From: Polyangiaceae bacterium
Lineage (GTDB): Bacteria; Myxococcota_A; Polyangia; Polyangiales; Polyangiaceae
Reading direction: 5' to 3'
Assembly: GCA_947475525.1 (NCBI GenBank)
Contig: CANJMI010000015.1
Location: forward strand, 1-64,000
Length of the DNA: 64,000 nt
Shown here: in pieces, positions 5,185 to 43,209 of the stretch
Numbering within the stretch: the stretch's first letter is position 1
How the letters are laid out: each line of letters opens with the position of its first letter
Program-made: the position numbers and the translations under genes
Notes under the pieces: generated by a model
The model's database searches: none
The model's input: the letters and a program-made list of their open reading frames with translations, nothing else
What the model was told of the DNA's origin: nothing

Positions 5185-5655
5185 TCAGTTCGGTGCCGGG
5201 CGGCCCTTGCCGCCGTCGTTCGAGGCAGGTTTGGCGCCTTCGATCTCGGCGGCTATCGGCGCGACTCCGAATGCGATCTTCGAGACCCCAGCCTGTTTCA
5301 GCAGGTCGAGTACGCGAATGATGCGCCCGTGCTGAACGGTCTTATCGGCGCGGATCACGGCACGCAGATCCTTGTTTTTCGCCAGCCCCTTTTTCGCCTC
5401 GTCGATAAGGCCTGTGTCGTCGGCGAGCTTTTTGCCGTCGACGTAGAGCGCGCCGTCGGCTTGGACTTCGAGGCCGAACACGAGCTGCGTTGTCTCGCCT
5501 TTGGCGGCTTTGGGCAGGTCGAGTGGCAGCGCGTTCGACGCGATGAAGCGCGCAGTCACCATCAGGATGACGAGCAGCACCAAGCAGACGTCGACCAGCG
5601 GCGTGACGTTGATACCCGCGACGAGGCCGTCGTCATCTTGGTTCGACATGCCCAT
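5185..5655 (-). CDS. exbD: ExbD/TolR-type biopolymer transport protein
   Basis: 156 residues. A short cytoplasmic tail leads to one membrane helix, INVTPLVDVCLVLLVILMVT. Its Asp in TPLVDVCLVLL is the conserved proton-carrying residue of ExbD/TolR. The periplasmic domain follows, with LYVDGKKLADD and VIRADKTVQHGRIIRVLDLL. It should form the stator motor with the ExbB-like protein encoded 1 base upstream and energise the TonB-like protein encoded downstream. Start choices are the ATG at 5655 (MGMSN) or at 5649 (MSN). Confidence 0.93.
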   Translation of the reverse strand: MGMSNQDDDGLVAGINVTPLVDVCLVLLVILMVTARFIASNALPLDLPKAAKGETTQLVFGLEVQADGALYVDGKKLADDTGLIDEAKKGLAKNKDLRAVIRADKTVQHGRIIRVLDLLKQAGVSKIAFGVAPIAAEIEGAKPASNDGGKGRPAPN

Positions 5656-5656
5656 G

Positions 5657-6478
5657 TCAGGTCTCGACGTTCTCGCTGTCGTTCGCGTCGTCTTTCGGAG
5701 TGCTTTCAGGTTTGCCGCCCGACTTCGAGGCGGCGCCCTTCTTCACGTTGCCCGATTTGGTCGCCGCGGGCTCAGCCTTGCCGACCTGGGAAACGTGCGC
5801 AATCGCTGCGGGAACGGCGCGCAGGTGCGCCAGCAAGACCTTCGAGAGCGCTTCGGTGTTGGCGAGCGTCGACTTGATCATGCGCTGAAACGTGTTGTTC
5901 GCAGCCACGGCCGGGATGGCGACCGCGATGCCGACGGCCGTGGCAACGAGCGCCTCGGCGATGGCTCCCATGACCTGCTTGTTCGCCATTTGGCCCGCGG
6001 CGTCGGCCGCCACTTTGCTCGTCTCGGCGTCGAGGGCCTTGAAGGCGCCGATGATACCGATGACCGTGCCGAAGAGGCCGATGAAGGGCGCATTGTTCCC
6101 GAGGGTCGCGAGGTAGGCAAGGCGTCGCTCGAGCTTGATCCGCTGAAGCGCGGCGGCTCCGTCCATCGCGGTTTCAACCGAAGCGGCGCCTTTTCCGACG
6201 AGCTCGAGCCCGGCTAAGACGACGGCAGCTTCGGCTGACGGAGAGGCTTCGAGGCGCTTTTTCGCAGCGTCGAACGACTCATCCAAGGCCTTACGGAGAT
6301 CGGAGGCGAGGAGCGCAAGATCGTCGCGCAAGGAATAAAAAAACCAGGCCCGTTCGAGAATGATCCCGAGGGATATCACGCTCAAACCCAACATTAGCCA
6401 CATGATCCAGCCGGCGCCGAACCCGACCATGATCTGTTCGAGCCAGGTGACGAGTTTGCTCTGCTGCTCGGAGGCCAT
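5657..6478 (-). CDS. exbB: ExbB/TolQ/MotA-family proton channel
   Basis: 273 residues with three expected membrane helices: about 18-38 (GAGWIMWLMLGLSVISLGI), about 125-150 (LATLGNNAPFIGLFGTVIG) and about 172-195 (AEALVATAVGIAVAIPAVA). The APFIGLFGTVIGIIGAF block and the Thr in ALVATAVG are the family signature that forms the proton path. The C-terminus is a charged Lys/Gly/Ser tail. It is first in the exbB-exbD-tonB operon. The family also includes TolQ and gliding-motor AglR-type subunits, so assignment to nutrient uptake is inference. Confidence 0.93.
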   Translation of the reverse strand: MASEQQSKLVTWLEQIMVGFGAGWIMWLMLGLSVISLGIILERAWFFYSLRDDLALLASDLRKALDESFDAAKKRLEASPSAEAAVVLAGLELVGKGAASVETAMDGAAALQRIKLERRLAYLATLGNNAPFIGLFGTVIGIIGAFKALDAETSKVAADAAGQMANKQVMGAIAEALVATAVGIAVAIPAVAANNTFQRMIKSTLANTEALSKVLLAHLRAVPAAIAHVSQVGKAEPAATKSGNVKKGAASKSGGKPESTPKDDANDSENVET

Positions 6479-6755
6479 CTTGTTGCGAGGTTTTCTAGTG
6501 ACGTTCGAATCGAAGGTAAAGCGGCATCTTGGGAGGGCCGGGGCGGGATGCTTTCCGCGGGTGGCGCTGAGAGGCGTTCGTTTCTATGACACTCGGCGGG
6601 CGCTTGCGCAACGCGCCTGCGGGGTGAGGTTGCTCAAGGTGGGGGTTTGAGGGTCGGCGTGGCGGGCGTTGCGAGCCTTTTGAGCCTTGCGAGCGTTGCT
6701 TAAAACCAGTCCTTCGCAAACGCGCGCATCCGTGCTTCGATTGCTGATCGCAATC

Positions 6756-33602: not shown

Positions 33603-35381
33603 TCATTCGTCGTCGTCCGCGTCGTCCTCGGACTCGACAATCGCTGCGCGCTTGCCTTTTTTGCCGGTTTTGAGATCCAGCTTGCCGCCGAGCTTCTCTT
33701 TGATGAGGTCACCGATGGTGCCCGGCATCGCGTCGGCTTGGGCCTTCAAGGCCTTGCGCTGACGCTGTGCCGCGCCTTCCTTGTCGGAGCCGATGTTCTT
33801 CATGTTGAGGAACACGCGGCGGTCCATCGTGTCGACGCTGGATACCTCGACCTTGACCTTCTGCTTCGCCTTGATGCCGCCCTCGGGCTGGTCGGCGTCG
33901 GTGGCGGGCACCATGCCTTCGATGCCCTCCTTGATGCGAACGAAGATGCCGTACTCGCAGGTCGAGATGACCTCGGCTTCCTCGAGGATCGTGCCGATCG
34001 GCAGGTCGCTGAGGAGCGTGGGCCACGGGTCGTCAAAGAGTTGCTTGCAGCCGAGTGACACCTTCTTCTCGTCGTGGTTGATCGAGAGGATGATGGCTTG
34101 GATGGTCTCGCCCTTCTTGTAGAGGTCGGCCGGATTGTTGAGCTTGACGGTCCATGACAGGTCGGTCTTGTGGACCATGCCGTCGACGCCATCTTCGATA
34201 CCGACGAAGACGCCGTAGTCCGTGATCGAGCGAATCTTGCCCTCGATCTTTTCGCCCGGGTGGTACTTCTCGGTGAAGAGTTCCCACGGATCCGCCTCGA
34301 GCTGCTTCATGCCGAGGCTGATGCGCTTGGCGGTCGCATCGACTTCGAGGACCTGGCAGTCGACCTCTTGCGTGAGCTCGAGCACCTTCGAGGGGTGCTT
34401 GATCTTCTTGGTCCAGCTCATCTCGCTTACGTGGATGAGACCCTCGATGCCCGGCTCGATCTCGACGAACGCGCCGTAGTCGGTGAGGCTCATCACCTTG
34501 CCGCGGACACGCTTACCAGGCGGGTAAGCCTCGGCTGCGTGGGTCCATGGATCTTCTTGCGTCTGCTTCAAGCCGAGCGAAACGCGCTCGGTTTCCACGT
34601 TGTACTTGAGGACCTTGACTTCGACCTTGTCACCGACGTTGAACACCTCGCTCGGGTGATTCACGCGGCCCCACGACATGTCGGTGATGTGGAGCAGACC
34701 ATCGATGCCACCGAGATCGACGAACGCGCCGTACTCGGTGATGTTCTTGATCACGCCGATGACCATCATGCCCTCTTGCAAGGTCTCGAGGGTCTTCTGC
34801 TTCAGGGTGTCGCGCTCCTGTTCGAGGAGGACACGGCGCGAAAGAACGATGTTCCCGCGCTTTTTGTTGAACTTGATGACCTTGAAATCGAGCGTCTGCC
34901 CGATGAGGCGATCGAGGTTGCGGATCGGGCGCAGATCGACCTGCGAGCCCGGTAGGAATGCCTTCACGCCGCCCTTGATGGTGACCGCGAGGCCGCCCTT
35001 CACGCGTTGCGCGATCGTTCCTTCGATCAGCTGGTCCTGCTCACAGGCCGCCGAGATGTCGTCCCACACCTTCAGGCGATCGGCTTTCTCTTTCGAGATC
35101 TTGACGAGGCCGTCGTCGCTCTCGCGGCTCTCGACGAACACGTCGACGACGTCGCCGATTTTTACGGCGGACTTGCCGTCTGGGCCTTCGCCGAATTCCT
35201 TCAGCGAGATGACGCCTTCGCTCTTGCCGCCGATGTCGATGATGACGTAGTCGCGGTCGATGCCGACCACCGTACCGTGAATGATCTCGCCTTCTTTTGC
35301 GAAGGCATCCGTCGCAGCGATTTGCTCAAAGAGCGCCGCGAAGGAATCTTGGGACGTCGAAGTCTGAAAGTCTTGGCTCAT
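33603..35381 (-). CDS. rpsA: 30S ribosomal protein S1
   Basis: 592 residues with six S1 RNA-binding domains, at about 28-96, 115-180, 200-272, 285-357, 372-445 and 460-527. Domains 3 to 5 carry the strong consensus, for example EYGAFVDLGGIDGLLHITDMSW. The C-terminal tail is Lys-rich, then acidic (VESEDDADDDE). It brings mRNA to the small subunit. The start MSQDFQTSTSQDSFAALFEQ is fixed by the ATG at 35381. The gene has its own TTGACA promoter, a structured leader and a strong terminator. The cmk and aroA-like genes lie upstream in the classic order but are separated from it by three envelope or membrane genes. Confidence 0.97.
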   Translation of the reverse strand: MSQDFQTSTSQDSFAALFEQIAATDAFAKEGEIIHGTVVGIDRDYVIIDIGGKSEGVISLKEFGEGPDGKSAVKIGDVVDVFVESRESDDGLVKISKEKADRLKVWDDISAACEQDQLIEGTIAQRVKGGLAVTIKGGVKAFLPGSQVDLRPIRNLDRLIGQTLDFKVIKFNKKRGNIVLSRRVLLEQERDTLKQKTLETLQEGMMVIGVIKNITEYGAFVDLGGIDGLLHITDMSWGRVNHPSEVFNVGDKVEVKVLKYNVETERVSLGLKQTQEDPWTHAAEAYPPGKRVRGKVMSLTDYGAFVEIEPGIEGLIHVSEMSWTKKIKHPSKVLELTQEVDCQVLEVDATAKRISLGMKQLEADPWELFTEKYHPGEKIEGKIRSITDYGVFVGIEDGVDGMVHKTDLSWTVKLNNPADLYKKGETIQAIILSINHDEKKVSLGCKQLFDDPWPTLLSDLPIGTILEEAEVISTCEYGIFVRIKEGIEGMVPATDADQPEGGIKAKQKVKVEVSSVDTMDRRVFLNMKNIGSDKEGAAQRQRKALKAQADAMPGTIGDLIKEKLGGKLDLKTGKKGKRAAIVESEDDADDDE

Positions 35382-36162: not shown

Positions 36163-37206
36163 CTACTTCAGCCGCGGTGTTTGTGCAAGGAGAGCGGAGA
36201 GCATGTCGGCGAGGCGTTGAACTTCACCTTCGAGTGCCGCAAACGGCCAGGCTGCGGCAACAAGGACGTTGTCTCCTTCGGCTCGAATGGTGGCTGACGT
36301 GAGGGCCTGACGCGCGCCCCCAAAATCACTCGGGGAAAAGATCAGCGCGAGTTTTACCGTCGCGAGGTCGGATTGGAGCGCCGACGCAAGCTCGGCGGCG
36401 GTCACTCCACGCGGGCGAAGTTGCAGGTCGACGCGAGGCGAGTCGTCGAGTGTGAACGTGCCGTTCAAGCGGTCGATCGTCGACAGGGTACGAATGGCGG
36501 AGAAGAGAGGAGGAAGGCTGTCGAGAGCGCGTCGGGACGCGGCGCTCTTCACCATGAAGGTGAGTGCTCCACGGGTCGGCAACGGCAGGTCGCTCGCACT
36601 CGATTCGGGGTCGCGCGCAGGGAGCGCGGCGAGCACGATGGACTTGGTGGTGCCGACGAGGATCGTTCCGTCAGCGGCTTGGCCGACGGTCGCGCCGAGC
36701 GTGTGCACGAGCACCTCACCGTCGCGCTTCCAGCCGCCTATCGCTTCCTCCTTGAGCACGGTTTCGAGGCCGTCCACAAACCGGCCGGCTTCGAGCGTGC
36801 CTCCGAAAGCGGCTACCCATTGCGTGCCGTCGAGCGAGCCCACGACCACCTCCCGCAAGTCCGTTGGCAGAGAAACGCCGGTGAGTTTTCGGAGACGGTC
36901 GAGACGCTCTTTGGCCCTGGTCGGTTGGTCTGGCGTGGCTCCTGCGTTTTCGAACACGGGGAGCAGTTTCTCCCGCACCGGTCTGAATGCGAGGAGCTGC
37001 AAGGCGTCCACGCGCACGGCGATGGTCGAACCCTCTGGCAAGTGCAGGTGAGCACGCGGCGGCGGGTGCAGGACTGCGAAGTAGAGGTAGGCGCCGACGC
37101 CGCCAACGACCGCGACCAACGTGAGCGCGACGACAACCCAGCGGAGTGAACCGCCGCGGCGCGTGGACTTCGAGGCCGGTGACGGCGTGGCTTGGGCTGG
37201 GTTCAT
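36163..37206 (-). CDS. membrane-anchored protein of unknown function
   Basis: 347 residues. One N-terminal membrane helix (about 22-44, WVVVALTLVAVVGGVGAYLY) is followed by a soluble, mostly beta/alpha region with LHLPEGSTIAVRVDALQLLAF and LREVVVGSLDGTQWVAAFGG. The pattern resembles proteins that measure or buffer envelope components (DUF3352-like), but I cannot fix a family. The start overlaps the upstream lipoprotein stop as ATGA. The neighbouring lipoprotein has a comparable layout (PGDLDVVLRLDLASIRDAL), so the two may be distant relatives working as a pair. Confidence 0.75.
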   Translation of the reverse strand: MNPAQATPSPASKSTRRGGSLRWVVVALTLVAVVGGVGAYLYFAVLHPPPRAHLHLPEGSTIAVRVDALQLLAFRPVREKLLPVFENAGATPDQPTRAKERLDRLRKLTGVSLPTDLREVVVGSLDGTQWVAAFGGTLEAGRFVDGLETVLKEEAIGGWKRDGEVLVHTLGATVGQAADGTILVGTTKSIVLAALPARDPESSASDLPLPTRGALTFMVKSAASRRALDSLPPLFSAIRTLSTIDRLNGTFTLDDSPRVDLQLRPRGVTAAELASALQSDLATVKLALIFSPSDFGGARQALTSATIRAEGDNVLVAAAWPFAALEGEVQRLADMLSALLAQTPRLK

Positions 37207-38231
37207 CGGGTGGGGTCAGAGTCTAGCGCGCGTTGTGAGGAAATTGGCGCGTCGGGCGCGACGGCGTGGTCTTGCATCAGGTCGAAAAGCACCGCCGCAG
37301 GGATTGGCCAACGCACCGTCACGCTGCGGTCGCGACGCTCGACCGTGAGCTTCCCGAGGAGCGCGGAGAGCTGCGCGCGTTCGGCTCCCGCTTCATGAAA
37401 TGCCAATAAAAATCGGGCAACGCGTTCGGCCGAGCGCTCCGTCCGACAACGGAGGCGCGCGGCGACGGCGAGCTCCCGACTGTGCACTTCGAGCACCGCC
37501 TCGACACGCTCGATGCCGCGGAGCAGTGTCCCTATCGACGGGCGCTCGCGAAGCCATGTTCCCGATGCGCGTTCGAGCCGCGCGTCGATGCTGAGCAGGC
37601 CGCGCGCTTCGGGATCGCCACGCCGCGGATCGGGGCCACGTGCGAGTACGCGACGTACGCTCGCGGCTTCGACCGGAGAGACGAATGCTCGCGCGTGTTC
37701 GAAGTCGAGGAGCTCGGCTGTGCCGCCACGGGGAGCGGGGCTGGTGGCGACGTAGCGGCTGACTCCGGCCACTCCGCTCGGCTGCGGCGACCAGGCGTCG
37801 GGCGAGGGCCGGGCGAGGGAGCGGTCTTTTAAGTCGACGACGAGAACGCGATCGCCCGCTCGCCAATCGGCGAGCCGCGTGCCGAGCCAGACAATTTGCG
37901 CCTCGCCGAGAGCGCGCGCCACGTCGCGGTCGATGCCGGCTTCAGCGATGCCGCGCTGGAGGAGTTCTTCCGTTGCGCGCTGGCCGAGCGCGTCTCGGAT
38001 CGAGGCGAGGTCGAGGCGAAGGACGACATCGAGGTCGCCGGGCATGAGCTCGACGGGATCGAGTGGGTGCGGCTTCACGCGCGCGCGTGCGGCGTTCAGA
38101 GTCTGCCCACCGCTCGTCTCGCCGCCGTGGGGCACGACTCGCCCGCAGCCAACGAGGAGCGAGCCCACCAAGAGCGAGCCCGTTAGAAACGCCGCGGCGA
38201 GCGTGTCACCCAGCGGCACGCAGGACGGCAT
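37203..38231 (-). CDS. lipoprotein related to its downstream neighbour
   Basis: 342 residues. The signal contains a 15-base duplication, encoding GSLLVGSLLVGCG, and the lipobox Cys29. The mature domain has MPGDLDVVLRLDLASIRDAL and IVWLGTRLADWRAGDRVLVV, resembling the strand-helix pattern of the membrane-anchored protein encoded next (HLPEGSTIAVRVDALQLL). Its start lies 26 bases inside the end of cmk; a GTG four codons in is an alternative. Location is the periplasmic side of a membrane, and function is unknown. It sits inside what is normally an aroA-cmk-rpsA cluster. Confidence 0.75.
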   Translation of the reverse strand: MPSCVPLGDTLAAAFLTGSLLVGSLLVGCGRVVPHGGETSGGQTLNAARARVKPHPLDPVELMPGDLDVVLRLDLASIRDALGQRATEELLQRGIAEAGIDRDVARALGEAQIVWLGTRLADWRAGDRVLVVDLKDRSLARPSPDAWSPQPSGVAGVSRYVATSPAPRGGTAELLDFEHARAFVSPVEAASVRRVLARGPDPRRGDPEARGLLSIDARLERASGTWLRERPSIGTLLRGIERVEAVLEVHSRELAVAARLRCRTERSAERVARFLLAFHEAGAERAQLSALLGKLTVERRDRSVTVRWPIPAAVLFDLMQDHAVAPDAPISSQRALDSDPTR

Positions 38232-38929: not shown

Positions 38930-40369
38930 CTACAACGTCTCGGTCGCCGTTGCCTCGCTCGTTCTGCTCGCATCGAGGACGACGACGTCGACGCCGAGGG
39001 CACGGAACGTGGCGGCGATGCGGGGGAACGAATCGACGAGATCGCCGAGGCCGTCGATCGTCGTCGAGCGAGGGGTGCCGACTGCCAGCATCAACGCTGC
39101 GAGAGCGAGGTCCGCATCGCCACGGCAATCGATGTGAATTTCCTGACTAAACTCTTGACCAATGCCGCCTACGACAATGCCGCCTACGACGAGACCTTCG
39201 CTTTGCACTGTGCACGACGCACCGAAGCGCTCGAGCAGCGATTGTAGCGCTCGCGGGTCGAAGTCTCCGAACGTCGGGAGGTCGAACAATTGCGAGTGGG
39301 CACCACGCGGTGCGCGCGCTGCGAGCGAGGCCAATACGGGAATGGAGACACCGACGCGGTGCGCACGCTCGCCGCCAAGCGCGAGGCCGCGCGCTAGCCC
39401 AGAAGAAAGCGTGACGTCGGCGGCGGGTAGCCCGAGCGCGTCGTGCTTGGCCTCGACGTTAAGGCGAGCTCCGGCGTCGGCTAGGGCTTCGAGCCAGCCG
39501 AGTGCCGTCGGGCGTGTAGGCAACCTTCGAACGCCGACGTGGCTCCCCGGTCGTTGCAAAGCCGCGCCTAGAATCGCGGCGCTGAAGTTCGCGTCGGCCG
39601 GTAGTGGACCGCAAAGCCCACGGAGCCGCACTGGCCCCTCGAGCTCCAGCATCGGGCCGAGCGATTGGATGGGGGCACCGGCTGCCGTCAGCATGCGCTC
39701 GAGCACATCATGGCTGACGATGCGTTCGAAGAGTTGCGTGGCGCCCTCCGCGTCGATTCCCGACAGCAGCGCGGTCGCCTTCGCGAGGTCACGCATGTCG
39801 GGCCACGCTTCCGTTTCACCGAGCTCGTAATTTAGCGGGGAGAGGGGGATGTCGGATGGGCCGAGCGCGAACGGCGGGCCCATCTTGCCCGCTCGTGGGC
39901 GTCCCGCGCCCGTGACTTCTTCGAGGACGGGCTGCCCCTCGATCGTGCCGCCCCGCATTCGCAAAACGCGAGCGATGGGAGCCATCACGCGACGCATGAC
40001 GTCGGGATCGCCGATGAGGCAGGTCGCGAACGGCAAACTTGCACCTATTGCGGCGAGCGACGCCATCGCTGCGGGTGAGCGCCCCGCATCGAGCTCCCGA
40101 CCGGGCGCGCGCATGCCGCTGAGGCCCGTGCCGCGTATCCGAAAACCATGCCGTCGGCCGGCCTGGTCCGTCATGCTTTCGATGGCGACACCGAGGGACC
40201 TCAGCGCGAGGGCGATGCCAAGCTCCGGCACGCCACGTCCTTCGAGCACGCTCTCGCATCCTTCGGCGAGTGCCGCTATCACGAGGGCGTAGGTCGCGGC
40301 GGCGGAGTCGATTGGACCCGGAACGATGCCGCGGAGGGGCGAGTCGGAGGGCGTGACGAGTAAGCGCAT
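38930..40369 (-). CDS. EPSP-synthase-fold protein (AroA-like), catalytic residues apparently lost
   Basis: 479 residues from the ATG at 40369. Length, repeat architecture and position before cmk identify it as AroA-related. LNPTRTG-like LPTRPTALGWLEALADAGARL and TIDGLGDLVDSFPRI are recognisable. Yet the shikimate-3-phosphate/PEP residues differ by eye alignment to E. coli AroA. PGSKSxSxR is replaced by GPIDSAAATYAL (18-29), GNAGTAMRP by GRSPAAMAS (96-104), the SSQ region by PDMRD (190-194), and Asp313 by Val345. RxKExDR is replaced by LPTFGDFD (364-371), DHRMAM by GDADLAL, and Lys411 by Asp446. Arg127 or Arg128 may remain. EPSP synthesis by this protein is doubtful. The frame is intact, so it is maintained, perhaps with a new role. 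Confidence 0.8.
   Translation of the reverse strand: MRLLVTPSDSPLRGIVPGPIDSAAATYALVIAALAEGCESVLEGRGVPELGIALALRSLGVAIESMTDQAGRRHGFRIRGTGLSGMRAPGRELDAGRSPAAMASLAAIGASLPFATCLIGDPDVMRRVMAPIARVLRMRGGTIEGQPVLEEVTGAGRPRAGKMGPPFALGPSDIPLSPLNYELGETEAWPDMRDLAKATALLSGIDAEGATQLFERIVSHDVLERMLTAAGAPIQSLGPMLELEGPVRLRGLCGPLPADANFSAAILGAALQRPGSHVGVRRLPTRPTALGWLEALADAGARLNVEAKHDALGLPAADVTLSSGLARGLALGGERAHRVGVSIPVLASLAARAPRGAHSQLFDLPTFGDFDPRALQSLLERFGASCTVQSEGLVVGGIVVGGIGQEFSQEIHIDCRGDADLALAALMLAVGTPRSTTIDGLGDLVDSFPRIAATFRALGVDVVVLDASRTSEATATETL
39161..39190 (-). repeat. 15-bp perfect tandem repeat in the AroA-like gene
   Basis: The unit AATGCCGCCTACGAC (plus-strand sense) at 39161-39175 is repeated at 39176-39190. 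It encodes a doubled VVGGI in a surface-type loop (LVVGGIVVGGIGQEF). The length is a multiple of three, so the frame is kept. Confidence 0.9.
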
Positions 40370-40470: not shown

Positions 40471-42132
40471 TTACGGTCGAATGTGAATCATTGTGCTCTT
40501 CGCCACCGGGGCGTAGGGCGAGACCGCGTACCAACCATCGGGCATCGGCGGGTCCATCCAGCCGAAGAGGTGGCGCGCATCGGGTGGTGACACGTTGATG
40601 CAGCCATGGCTCTTCGGACGGCCGAAGTCGTCGTGCCACCAAGCTCCGTGGAGGGCAAAATTGTCCCGGTAATATTGCACCCAGGGGACTTCCTGGACGT
40701 ACCAATCTGAGCCTTTGTCGCGCCCGGACATGTCGCCGGAGAGCAGCTTCCACTGGACGTAGTGTTTGCCGCGCGCGGTCGAGTACGCGCTATTGGCGAT
40801 GCCGTCCTGGCCAGGCGAAATGGCGGTGGCGTACACGGGTTCGTGCCCTTCGTAGGCGAGCAGGTAGCCCCAGGTCACGCGGACCTCGACCCACTTGTCG
40901 CGCGGGCCGATGTGCGGGGCGATGTACTCCGCCTTCTTGATGATCGAGACCGTGTTGTAGGCGACCCACGCGTCGTCATCGACGTTCCAGTAGACGAGCC
41001 CATGCGGTCCGCGCACCTGCTTCAAGCTCGTCCGCACGAACGAATGGCGCTTGAACTTCTCGGCGGTCTCGATGAGCTTACCGTCGCTGCCCATTCGAAA
41101 CTTCGTGGTGTCGTCGGTCCAGAAGTACGCGAGCGGCAGCTTCATCGACGGATTCGCCTTGAGGTCGATGCCTCGAAGATCCGGCAGCGGCTTCTGCCGA
41201 ACCTTGTCTTTCGGGAGAATCGTCATGTCGGGCGTGAGCAACCAGGTGCGGCCGTTGGCGTCGAATTCTTGCGTCCACGACACCTTCATTCCGCTGAAAG
41301 CAGGCTTCTCGTCGACGAGCGGTAGCTTCGTCGTCTCGAGGTAACGGAGGAACGCGGGGGTTGGCGGTTTTCCCGCGGGCGTCGAGCTGACAGCGCCTCC
41401 CTTTTCGTCGTCGCTCTCGACCGGATGCGCGAGGTGGGCATCGAGGTCTTTCTCCTGCTCGCGCTGCTCGATCGCGGTGGGAAGCCGCCGGTACTGCGGG
41501 GCACCGACCGACACTCCGTAGTGAAAAGGGTAGTCGGCATTGACGTCAGGTAGCGACGCCATCGCCGCGACTACCCGCGGGTCGTTTCCGTCACGCGTGG
41601 CATGCTCGCCGCCTCCGACGCACACGAAGCCGCGTGGCTCGACGGGGTACCAACCTTCGTCGCAAAGGTATTCGCGGTTCAATTTACGGTCGGGCGTGAG
41701 CGTGCTGTCCTTCATCGCGACGGACTGCCCGCCACGGAACGCGCCGATCACGGGTGCGTCGCGATGCGGCTTGTCGAAAATGCGGACGAGTCCCGCAGGT
41801 GCGAACAAGCGGCCTCGTTCGTCGGCAGGCTTCGGCTCGATAGGTCCGAATGCGGTGCCGCCGGAACCGTCGGACTTCGCCTTCGGATGCTCCTCGAGGG
41901 ACAGCGATGGTTCGGCATCGCTCGGCATCGCAGCGTCCCCGTGAGCGGGAACCGCGGCAGCCGTTCGTCTGTTCGCGAGCGGAGCGTCGACCTCATCCGC
42001 GGGGGAGGTCGACGCGGACGGAGACGCGCCGCAGCCGATGACGAGTGCCGCTGCGAGCCCCGCGTGCCACCGTCCTCCACGGCTACGAAACGCATCTGGA
42101 CCACCACCAGAAAACGAACCCTGCGCCGACAT
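40471..42132 (-). CDS. L,D-transpeptidase lipoprotein (YkuD domain)
   Basis: 553 residues. The lipoprotein signal ends LVIGC (Cys34). A disordered Ser/Glu/Pro part precedes an SH3-like segment (about 115-150, LVRIFDKPHRDAPVIGAFRG). The C-terminal YkuD domain (about 400-553) has the catalytic set HGAWWHDDFGRPKSHGCIN with nucleophile Cys511. It should form 3-3 peptide cross-links or attach proteins to peptidoglycan in the periplasm. It is long for the family, the extra middle region (about 180-400) being unassigned. It has its own strong terminator. Confidence 0.92.
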   Translation of the reverse strand: MSAQGSFSGGGPDAFRSRGGRWHAGLAAALVIGCGASPSASTSPADEVDAPLANRRTAAAVPAHGDAAMPSDAEPSLSLEEHPKAKSDGSGGTAFGPIEPKPADERGRLFAPAGLVRIFDKPHRDAPVIGAFRGGQSVAMKDSTLTPDRKLNREYLCDEGWYPVEPRGFVCVGGGEHATRDGNDPRVVAAMASLPDVNADYPFHYGVSVGAPQYRRLPTAIEQREQEKDLDAHLAHPVESDDEKGGAVSSTPAGKPPTPAFLRYLETTKLPLVDEKPAFSGMKVSWTQEFDANGRTWLLTPDMTILPKDKVRQKPLPDLRGIDLKANPSMKLPLAYFWTDDTTKFRMGSDGKLIETAEKFKRHSFVRTSLKQVRGPHGLVYWNVDDDAWVAYNTVSIIKKAEYIAPHIGPRDKWVEVRVTWGYLLAYEGHEPVYATAISPGQDGIANSAYSTARGKHYVQWKLLSGDMSGRDKGSDWYVQEVPWVQYYRDNFALHGAWWHDDFGRPKSHGCINVSPPDARHLFGWMDPPMPDGWYAVSPYAPVAKSTMIHIRP

Positions 42133-42302: not shown

Positions 42303-43100
42303 TCACGGAATGACGTAGACGGCGCCCTTCATCCCCGCGACGTAGTGGTAGTCGCAGTAGAAGCCGTACGCGCCGGGCGTGTTGAACGCGAACGTGGCAT
42401 TTTGCCCTGCCGCGGTCTTTAGAATCGGGCTCGTGGGGTCCTCGATCTTGGTCGACCCGTCGGCGAGGCCACCGACCAGCGGGTGGGCTGCGAAGGTTGT
42501 GTTGTTGCCGAGAAACAACACGCTCTGCCCGACTTTGATCTTGATGCAGGCGGGCGTGTACTCGAGCCCTGCGCCAGGGAACGTGATCGCGGGAGTCGGA
42601 TTCTGCGAATAGTCGACGAGGGCGGCCGCCCCGCCGGGCATCGCGTTGGGATCGCACCCATTCAGCGGCAGCGTGAGGTCCCCGCCACCGGTGGCCGACG
42701 AGCTGACCGCGGTGGAGCTTGCGGTGGAGCTTGCGGTGGAGCTTGCGGTCGTGGTCGCAACCATGTCACCGCCGGACCCGGCGTGCATCCCGCCCGAGCC
42801 GTGCATCATCGAACCGCCTTCGCCCGAGCTGCTCACGGTCTGCGCGTCGTAGATCTCTTTGGTGACGCAAGCGTTCAGGAGCGGGCTGCAATACTTGTCG
42901 TTCCCAGGATGAACGGTGCAGCTATCGTACGAAAGCTCGTTGTTTGCGCCGCAGAGCTCGATGCGGTTGCCGACGCAGCGCGATTGCCCGACGCGCTCGT
43001 CTGCGCAGTCCTTGCCTTTGCAAGCGCTCGCAAGTGAGGAGGCCGCGAGCGCCAACATGCCGATGCCAAAGCCAACTCGGTAGATCAAGGTACTCGCCAT
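42303..43100 (-). CDS. cupredoxin-domain lipoprotein, type 1 copper
   Basis: 265 residues from the ATG at 43100. The signal ends in lipobox SLASAC (Cys27). A Cys-rich head (about 28-85, CADERVGQSRCVGNRIELC) is followed by a Gly/Ser/Met/His linker with GGSMMHGSGGMHAGSGG and a Ser/Thr/Ala repeat. The C-terminal plastocyanin-like domain (about 165-265) carries the type 1 copper ligands His206 (FAAHPLVGG) and Cys249, His252 and Met257 (YCDYHYVAGM). It is probably an outer-membrane-anchored electron carrier or copper-binding protein. The His/Met linker could also bind copper. No redox partner is encoded nearby. Confidence 0.88.
   Translation of the reverse strand: MASTLIYRVGFGIGMLALAASSLASACKGKDCADERVGQSRCVGNRIELCGANNELSYDSCTVHPGNDKYCSPLLNACVTKEIYDAQTVSSSGEGGSMMHGSGGMHAGSGGDMVATTTASSTASSTASSTAVSSSATGGGDLTLPLNGCDPNAMPGGAAALVDYSQNPTPAITFPGAGLEYTPACIKIKVGQSVLFLGNNTTFAAHPLVGGLADGSTKIEDPTSPILKTAAGQNATFAFNTPGAYGFYCDYHYVAGMKGAVYVIP
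42711..42746 (-). repeat. 12-bp tandem repeat, three copies, in the cupredoxin linker
   Basis: GGTGGAGCTTGC (plus-strand sense) at 42711, 42723 and 42735. It encodes repeated Ala-Ser-Ser-Thr (STASSTASSTA) in the linker between head and copper domain. Confidence 0.9.
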
Positions 43101-43209
43101 GACGTGCTCGTTTGCGAAAACGTAGTAGAAGTGAACGAACAGCCTAACTGATTCAAGGGACTCCACACAAGCTTGGACTCCCGGTCGGCGGCGACGCGAG
43201 GCCAAGATA

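Follow-up and report, generated by a model that had tools for sequence, protein, structure and literature searches.

An AroA-derived protein without the EPSP synthase active site is retained beside cmk in Polyangiaceae

AroA, the EPSP synthase, belongs to textbook biochemistry and is the enzyme that glyphosate targets. In fungi, the DHQ synthase and EPSP synthase domains of AROM gave rise to the protein QutA. AROM is likewise the source of the QutR-type repressors, which are regarded as inactive but inducer-binding (PMC10512348). Fusion proteins of AroA and the cytidylate kinase Cmk constitute a curated family, PRK11860 (NCBIfam NF008816). Pseudoenzymes are already known as a kind, and a review of them names no example from EPSP synthase, AroA or the shikimate pathway (PMC10211241). 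Full-text literature searches of open-licence papers yielded nothing on a pseudoenzyme of EPSP synthase, on myxobacterial AroA paralogues or on a Sorangium EPSP synthase, and nothing useful on a link between AroA and cytidylate kinase. The protein described here is, on the evidence of sequence comparison, largely supported as an AroA-derived pseudoenzyme, and the data suggest that a retired AroA has retained a non-catalytic job of a sort not described before.

The window is a stretch of 64,000 nucleotides from a Polyangiaceae bacterium (GenBank assembly GCA_947475525.1, contig CANJMI010000015.1, positions 1 to 64,000). The intact 479-codon frame of the original prediction does stand directly before cmk, but on the minus strand: it occupies 38930-40369, is read from its ATG at 40369 down to 38930, and the plus strand of the same interval is full of stops. 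After a gap of 13 nt follows cmk (38916 to 38206, minus strand; PF02224, 221.9 bits). Further downstream on this strand are a lipoprotein-like gene without a Pfam match (37203-38231), a second gene of the same run whose product has no Pfam match either (36163-37206), and rpsA, encoding ribosomal protein S1 (33603-35381; PF00575, six stretches). A YkuD-type L,D-transpeptidase gene (40471-42132, minus strand; PF03734) lies 101 nt upstream. This gene is also found upstream in the relatives G051 and G045 and on the corresponding locus of G061, and is absent from the canonical relatives checked; a gene similar to the lipoprotein-like one follows cmk in locus L139. The two adjoining genes at 36163-38231 are secreted or lipoprotein-like, and in several other Polyangiales genomes the AroA copy is immediately preceded by a gene whose start is similar (LLPxGAIG..DAKxLFAS). 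At 42303-43205 the window also encodes a lipoprotein-like product that bears a copper-binding domain of the plastocyanin/azurin type. Upstream neighbors of cmk-locus AroA copies differ among the genomes compared, with no shared partner gene. On the 3' side, the AroA copy is followed by cmk in all other genomes checked, altered ones included.

The 479-residue protein is AroA by fold and synteny. EPSP_synthase is its sole Pfam match (49 bits, E 4.6e-13), and its AlphaFold model (pLDDT 91.4, pTM 0.91) has the two-domain inside-out alpha/beta barrel fold of EPSP synthase. The best structural matches of the model are class II EPSP synthases, for example that of Coxiella (3slh; Z 42.1, rmsd 2.5, 430 residues). 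An identity as MurA or another enolpyruvyl transferase was rejected, as AroA structures rank first, MurA structures rank lower (Z 33 or less versus 42), and a separate canonical MurA is encoded on contig C10 of the same genome. The native enzyme of the Polyangiales cmk locus is of class II (CP4/Coxiella type). Fold, length, repeat structure and the place before cmk are common to the window's protein and class II EPSP synthases (3slh from Coxiella, 2gg6 from CP4, 3rmt from Bacillus halodurans), to which it is orthologous by position. It differs from them in its active site, as detailed below, and in failing the NCBIfam aroA model TIGR01356, with 52.2 bits against a curated cut-off of 287.25. 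Its top-scoring family is the TyrA-AroA fusion enzyme (NCBIfam NF011381, PRK14806; 118 bits), matched through the class II AroA half; the protein has no TyrA part and stays far under the cut-off of 902 for that family.

Twenty active-site columns were compared between the protein, E. coli AroA, 24 canonical cmk-locus orthologues and class II EPSP synthases. The canonical residue is kept in only two of the 20, the equivalents of R124 and D384; among the 122 columns outside the active site at which the canonical orthologues do not vary, it is kept in 76 (Fisher 1e-5). Changed positions include K22, S23, R27, N94, G96, S169-A170-Q171, D313, K340, E341, R344, H385 and R386, and the known PEP ligands are all gone except for the R124 equivalent. 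Every replacement that had been listed from the sequence alone is present. One of them, at the Lys411 position of E. coli AroA, is uninformative: canonical class II relatives already carry Thr there, so the change is not evidence of loss. Alignment to AroA and MurA structures returned the AroA fold and left no room for catalytic residues elsewhere in it. The protein thus combines AroA homology with loss of the catalytic motif, as pseudoenzymes do.

A complete EPSP synthase is encoded elsewhere in the same genome (5.15 Mb, 98.9% complete). A search by family identified three EPSP-synthase-family proteins, namely the MurA on C10, the cmk-locus protein and a canonical AroA on contig C8. The C8 AroA scores 325.7 bits against the NCBIfam aroA model and has every catalytic residue present, which places EPSP synthesis there rather than at the cmk locus and settles the original choice between synthesis elsewhere and none in favor of the former. 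Its gene stands in an aroB-aroDE-aroA cluster in which aroDE is a fusion, and chorismate synthase is also present in the genome. Among 26 genomes searched, full-length matches to the aroDE fusion occur only in those with a C8-type AroA; one such AroD-AroE fusion lies at 5272-6747 of locus L089. These patterns suggest that the cluster was gained as one unit. The second AroA was probably imported by transfer.

The cmk-locus protein is maintained by selection despite the loss of its active site. As many dS values are saturated, omega is quoted as an estimate only at dS under about 2. For the closest congener pair (G000/G051, 71% identical), the cmk-locus omega of 0.058 is to be read with caution at a saturated dS of 3.6; the same two genomes give 0.068 for the working AroA, where dS is also saturated, and 0.043 for MurA. 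This agrees with the maintained pseudoenzyme that had been proposed for the locus. In less saturated comparisons, a pair of dead copies (G041/G107) has an omega of 0.114 at dS 0.52 and the closest pair of genus g22 (G122/G125) one of 0.027 at dS 1.3, all with intact frames. Across Polyangiales, the comparison of dN/dS showed purifying selection on dead copies (omega 0.03-0.11), like that on working AroA; for pairs with less saturation, the likelihood ratios were 143-444. Pairs within genus g19 range from 0.09 to 0.13, and canonical pairs mostly from 0.03 to 0.06. Active-site columns are perfectly conserved among canonical pairs, while in dead copies they evolve at an ordinary or fast rate; in G118/G119, for instance, they are 0.47 identical versus 0.83 at other ancestral invariants.

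The same state is found in all five genomes of the window's genus and recurs widely beyond it. Altered cmk-locus copies with intact frames occur in 30 sampled Polyangiales genomes. The active site is almost gone in 18 of these (members of g1, g45, g41, g3, g40 and g7, two of g5, one of g31, and two of another family, f5) and partly changed in 12 (six of g22 and six of g19, a genus with 11-15 Mb chromosomes). Named relatives, identified at five loci, are metagenome bins classed as Polyangiaceae or Myxococcales, and their isolate names suggest lakes. A second AroA is present in 30/30 genomes with an altered copy; in the 27 such second copies read, of the C8 type or an E. coli-like type, the catalytic residues are nearly complete. 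No second full-length AroA was found in the 24 checked genomes with a canonical cmk-locus copy. In G056 (locus L084), the canonical AroA is split in two frames, yet it is 93% identical to that of congener G014; the probable cause is an error of sequencing or a frameshift of recent date.

Because these genomes are not independent, the count on a tree weighs more than the counts of genomes. The AroA tree joins long branches and leaves the number of origins unsettled, so origins were counted on MurA and on MurA plus Cmk. With 73 genomes on the MurA tree, six changes are required for the label of dead copy, five of which are forced by well supported branches, and nine for the split of altered or lost versus canonical. 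This tree indicates at least five or six separate inactivations of the cmk-locus AroA. Within g5, G118 is dead amid canonical congeners; within g31, G127 is dead and G031 canonical. Intermediate stages are also found. The cmk-locus AroA of G134 (genus g19; locus L146, 1501-2847, plus strand) is a snapshot of mid-transition, with 13 of 20 active-site residues changed versus 6 of 123 other invariants, whereas its congeners G019, G133 and G136 have lost only three active-site residues (K340Q and two in the SAQ motif). As the erosion recurs in independent lineages, in frames that are under purifying selection, it is not due to chance. Several other lineages have deleted the gene instead: in G009, G024, G016 and G101, all with a second AroA, no AroA-like sequence was found in roughly 1.4 kb before cmk, and the retained role is therefore dispensable for some lineages.

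On balance, we consider it probable that AroA was replaced by a second gene and that the old protein has been kept under selection for a non-catalytic role, probably that of binding a partner. The cmk-locus gene would be what has become of the native class II Polyangiales aroA, still in its old aroA-cmk place, and a second AroA, here that of the aroB-aroDE-aroA cluster on another contig, would have taken over catalysis. Freed from this duty, the native protein would have lost substrate and PEP binding and kept its fold, being retained for a task that needs fold and surface but not the pocket. Strong purifying selection on a protein with its active site lost means that it most likely works without catalysis; we infer that it has no activity as an EPSP synthase and that it acts by binding to protein. 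The partner may be Cmk, as the best candidate, or another chorismate-pathway enzyme. Cmk is the most natural choice since it stays adjacent in every altered genome checked and is fused to AroA in a curated family; this adjacency is ancestral, however, and is weak evidence for binding, and Cmk taken by itself is rather unlikely to be the partner. A broader version, for which the chances seem slightly below even, is that a second job without catalysis, such as that of partnering Cmk, is an old property of native Polyangiales AroA. Selection would have kept this job alone after each takeover and so made the enzyme a pseudoenzyme at least five or six times independently.

The pocket might instead have been turned to another ligand, bound or converted, in which case the protein would act as an enzyme or sense a small molecule rather than serve purely as a scaffold. 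This idea draws most from g22, all six genomes of which (L147-L151, L024) share the pocket replacements Arg for K22, Asp for A170, His for Q171 and Asp or Glu for K340, with the low omega of their closest pair given above; these conserved residues could be a true new ligand site. New residues have also been fixed in the window's clade, for example Arg334 in GGERAxR and Asp419 in place of R386, and its GGERAHR strand is more conserved than in canonical AroA. A fungal parallel is seen in the QutR-type repressors, probably inactive yet still able to bind inducer (PMC10512348). In the window's genus, however, conservation in the columns of the former pocket does not exceed that of the rest (G000-G005: 0.35 versus 0.49), the K340-E341-R344 loop is among the least conserved parts of the protein in the window's clade (0.24 versus 0.80 in canonical copies), and all known PEP ligands but the R124 equivalent have gone. 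A paralogue with a new ligand, the other option of the original prediction, is not supported for the window's genus and possible for g22, and as a general explanation we find it distinctly unlikely.

Three further explanations fare worse. The gene could be a decaying remnant whose frame stays open only because its translation feeds cmk and rpsA downstream. Both of these genes are usually essential, the gap between stop codon and cmk start is short (13 nt), and no broken frames were seen among the altered copies read. Translational coupling puts no constraint on amino acids and cannot alone explain their conservation, as seen in the low omega values, the high likelihood ratios and the selective keeping of ancestral non-catalytic residues; in several lineages, moreover, the gene is absent with cmk intact. 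This makes coupling improbable as the whole account. It is harder still to credit that the protein remains an EPSP synthase whose catalytic residues have moved or been misaligned. AroA fold and length are preserved and closure of the two domains would remain possible, but a complete AroA exists elsewhere in the genome, and the register is not in doubt given the unambiguous motif alignment to class II EPSP synthases and the intermediates G019, G134, G022 and G119. The possibility that the second AroA entered from another organism through assembly or binning is next to negligible. Many of the genomes are indeed metagenome bins, but G133, G134 and G135 each carry both copies on one chromosome-sized contig, which excludes such an artefact there, and all five congeners of the window bear the same second AroA type on their own contigs.

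Read in this way, soil and lake myxobacteria have repeatedly handed the task of an essential enzyme of aromatic amino acid biosynthesis to a second gene copy. That the active site was lost several times, each time independently, with the fold kept is strong natural evidence for a second job of a metabolic enzyme, and the many intermediate stages open the transition to experiment. If a long-standing second job is the true cause, natural loss-of-catalysis experiments would have brought to light a function hidden in an enzyme of central metabolism. There is also a practical consequence for annotation. The partly altered copy of G019 passes the NCBIfam aroA cut-off, and annotation by homology names some such copies AroA, a labeling that would lead metabolic models astray, along with predicted sensitivities to glyphosate.

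Compared with pseudoenzymes generally, the cmk-locus protein is likewise an enzyme fold with its catalytic motif lost and under selection (PMC10211241). The AROM-derived fungal regulators QutR, TanX and GaaX are likewise shikimate-pathway proteins that have lost catalysis and been kept for another job (PMC10512348). They are fungal and multi-domain, however, and the QutR type derives from the last three domains of AROM, the EPSP synthase domain not being its source; in the cmk-locus protein, Pfam matched EPSP_synthase alone and detected no DNA-binding or activator domain. In the AroA-Cmk fusion enzymes (NF008816, PRK11860), the same two proteins are linked, but there an active AroA is joined to Cmk, whereas here the genes are separate and the AroA is dead.
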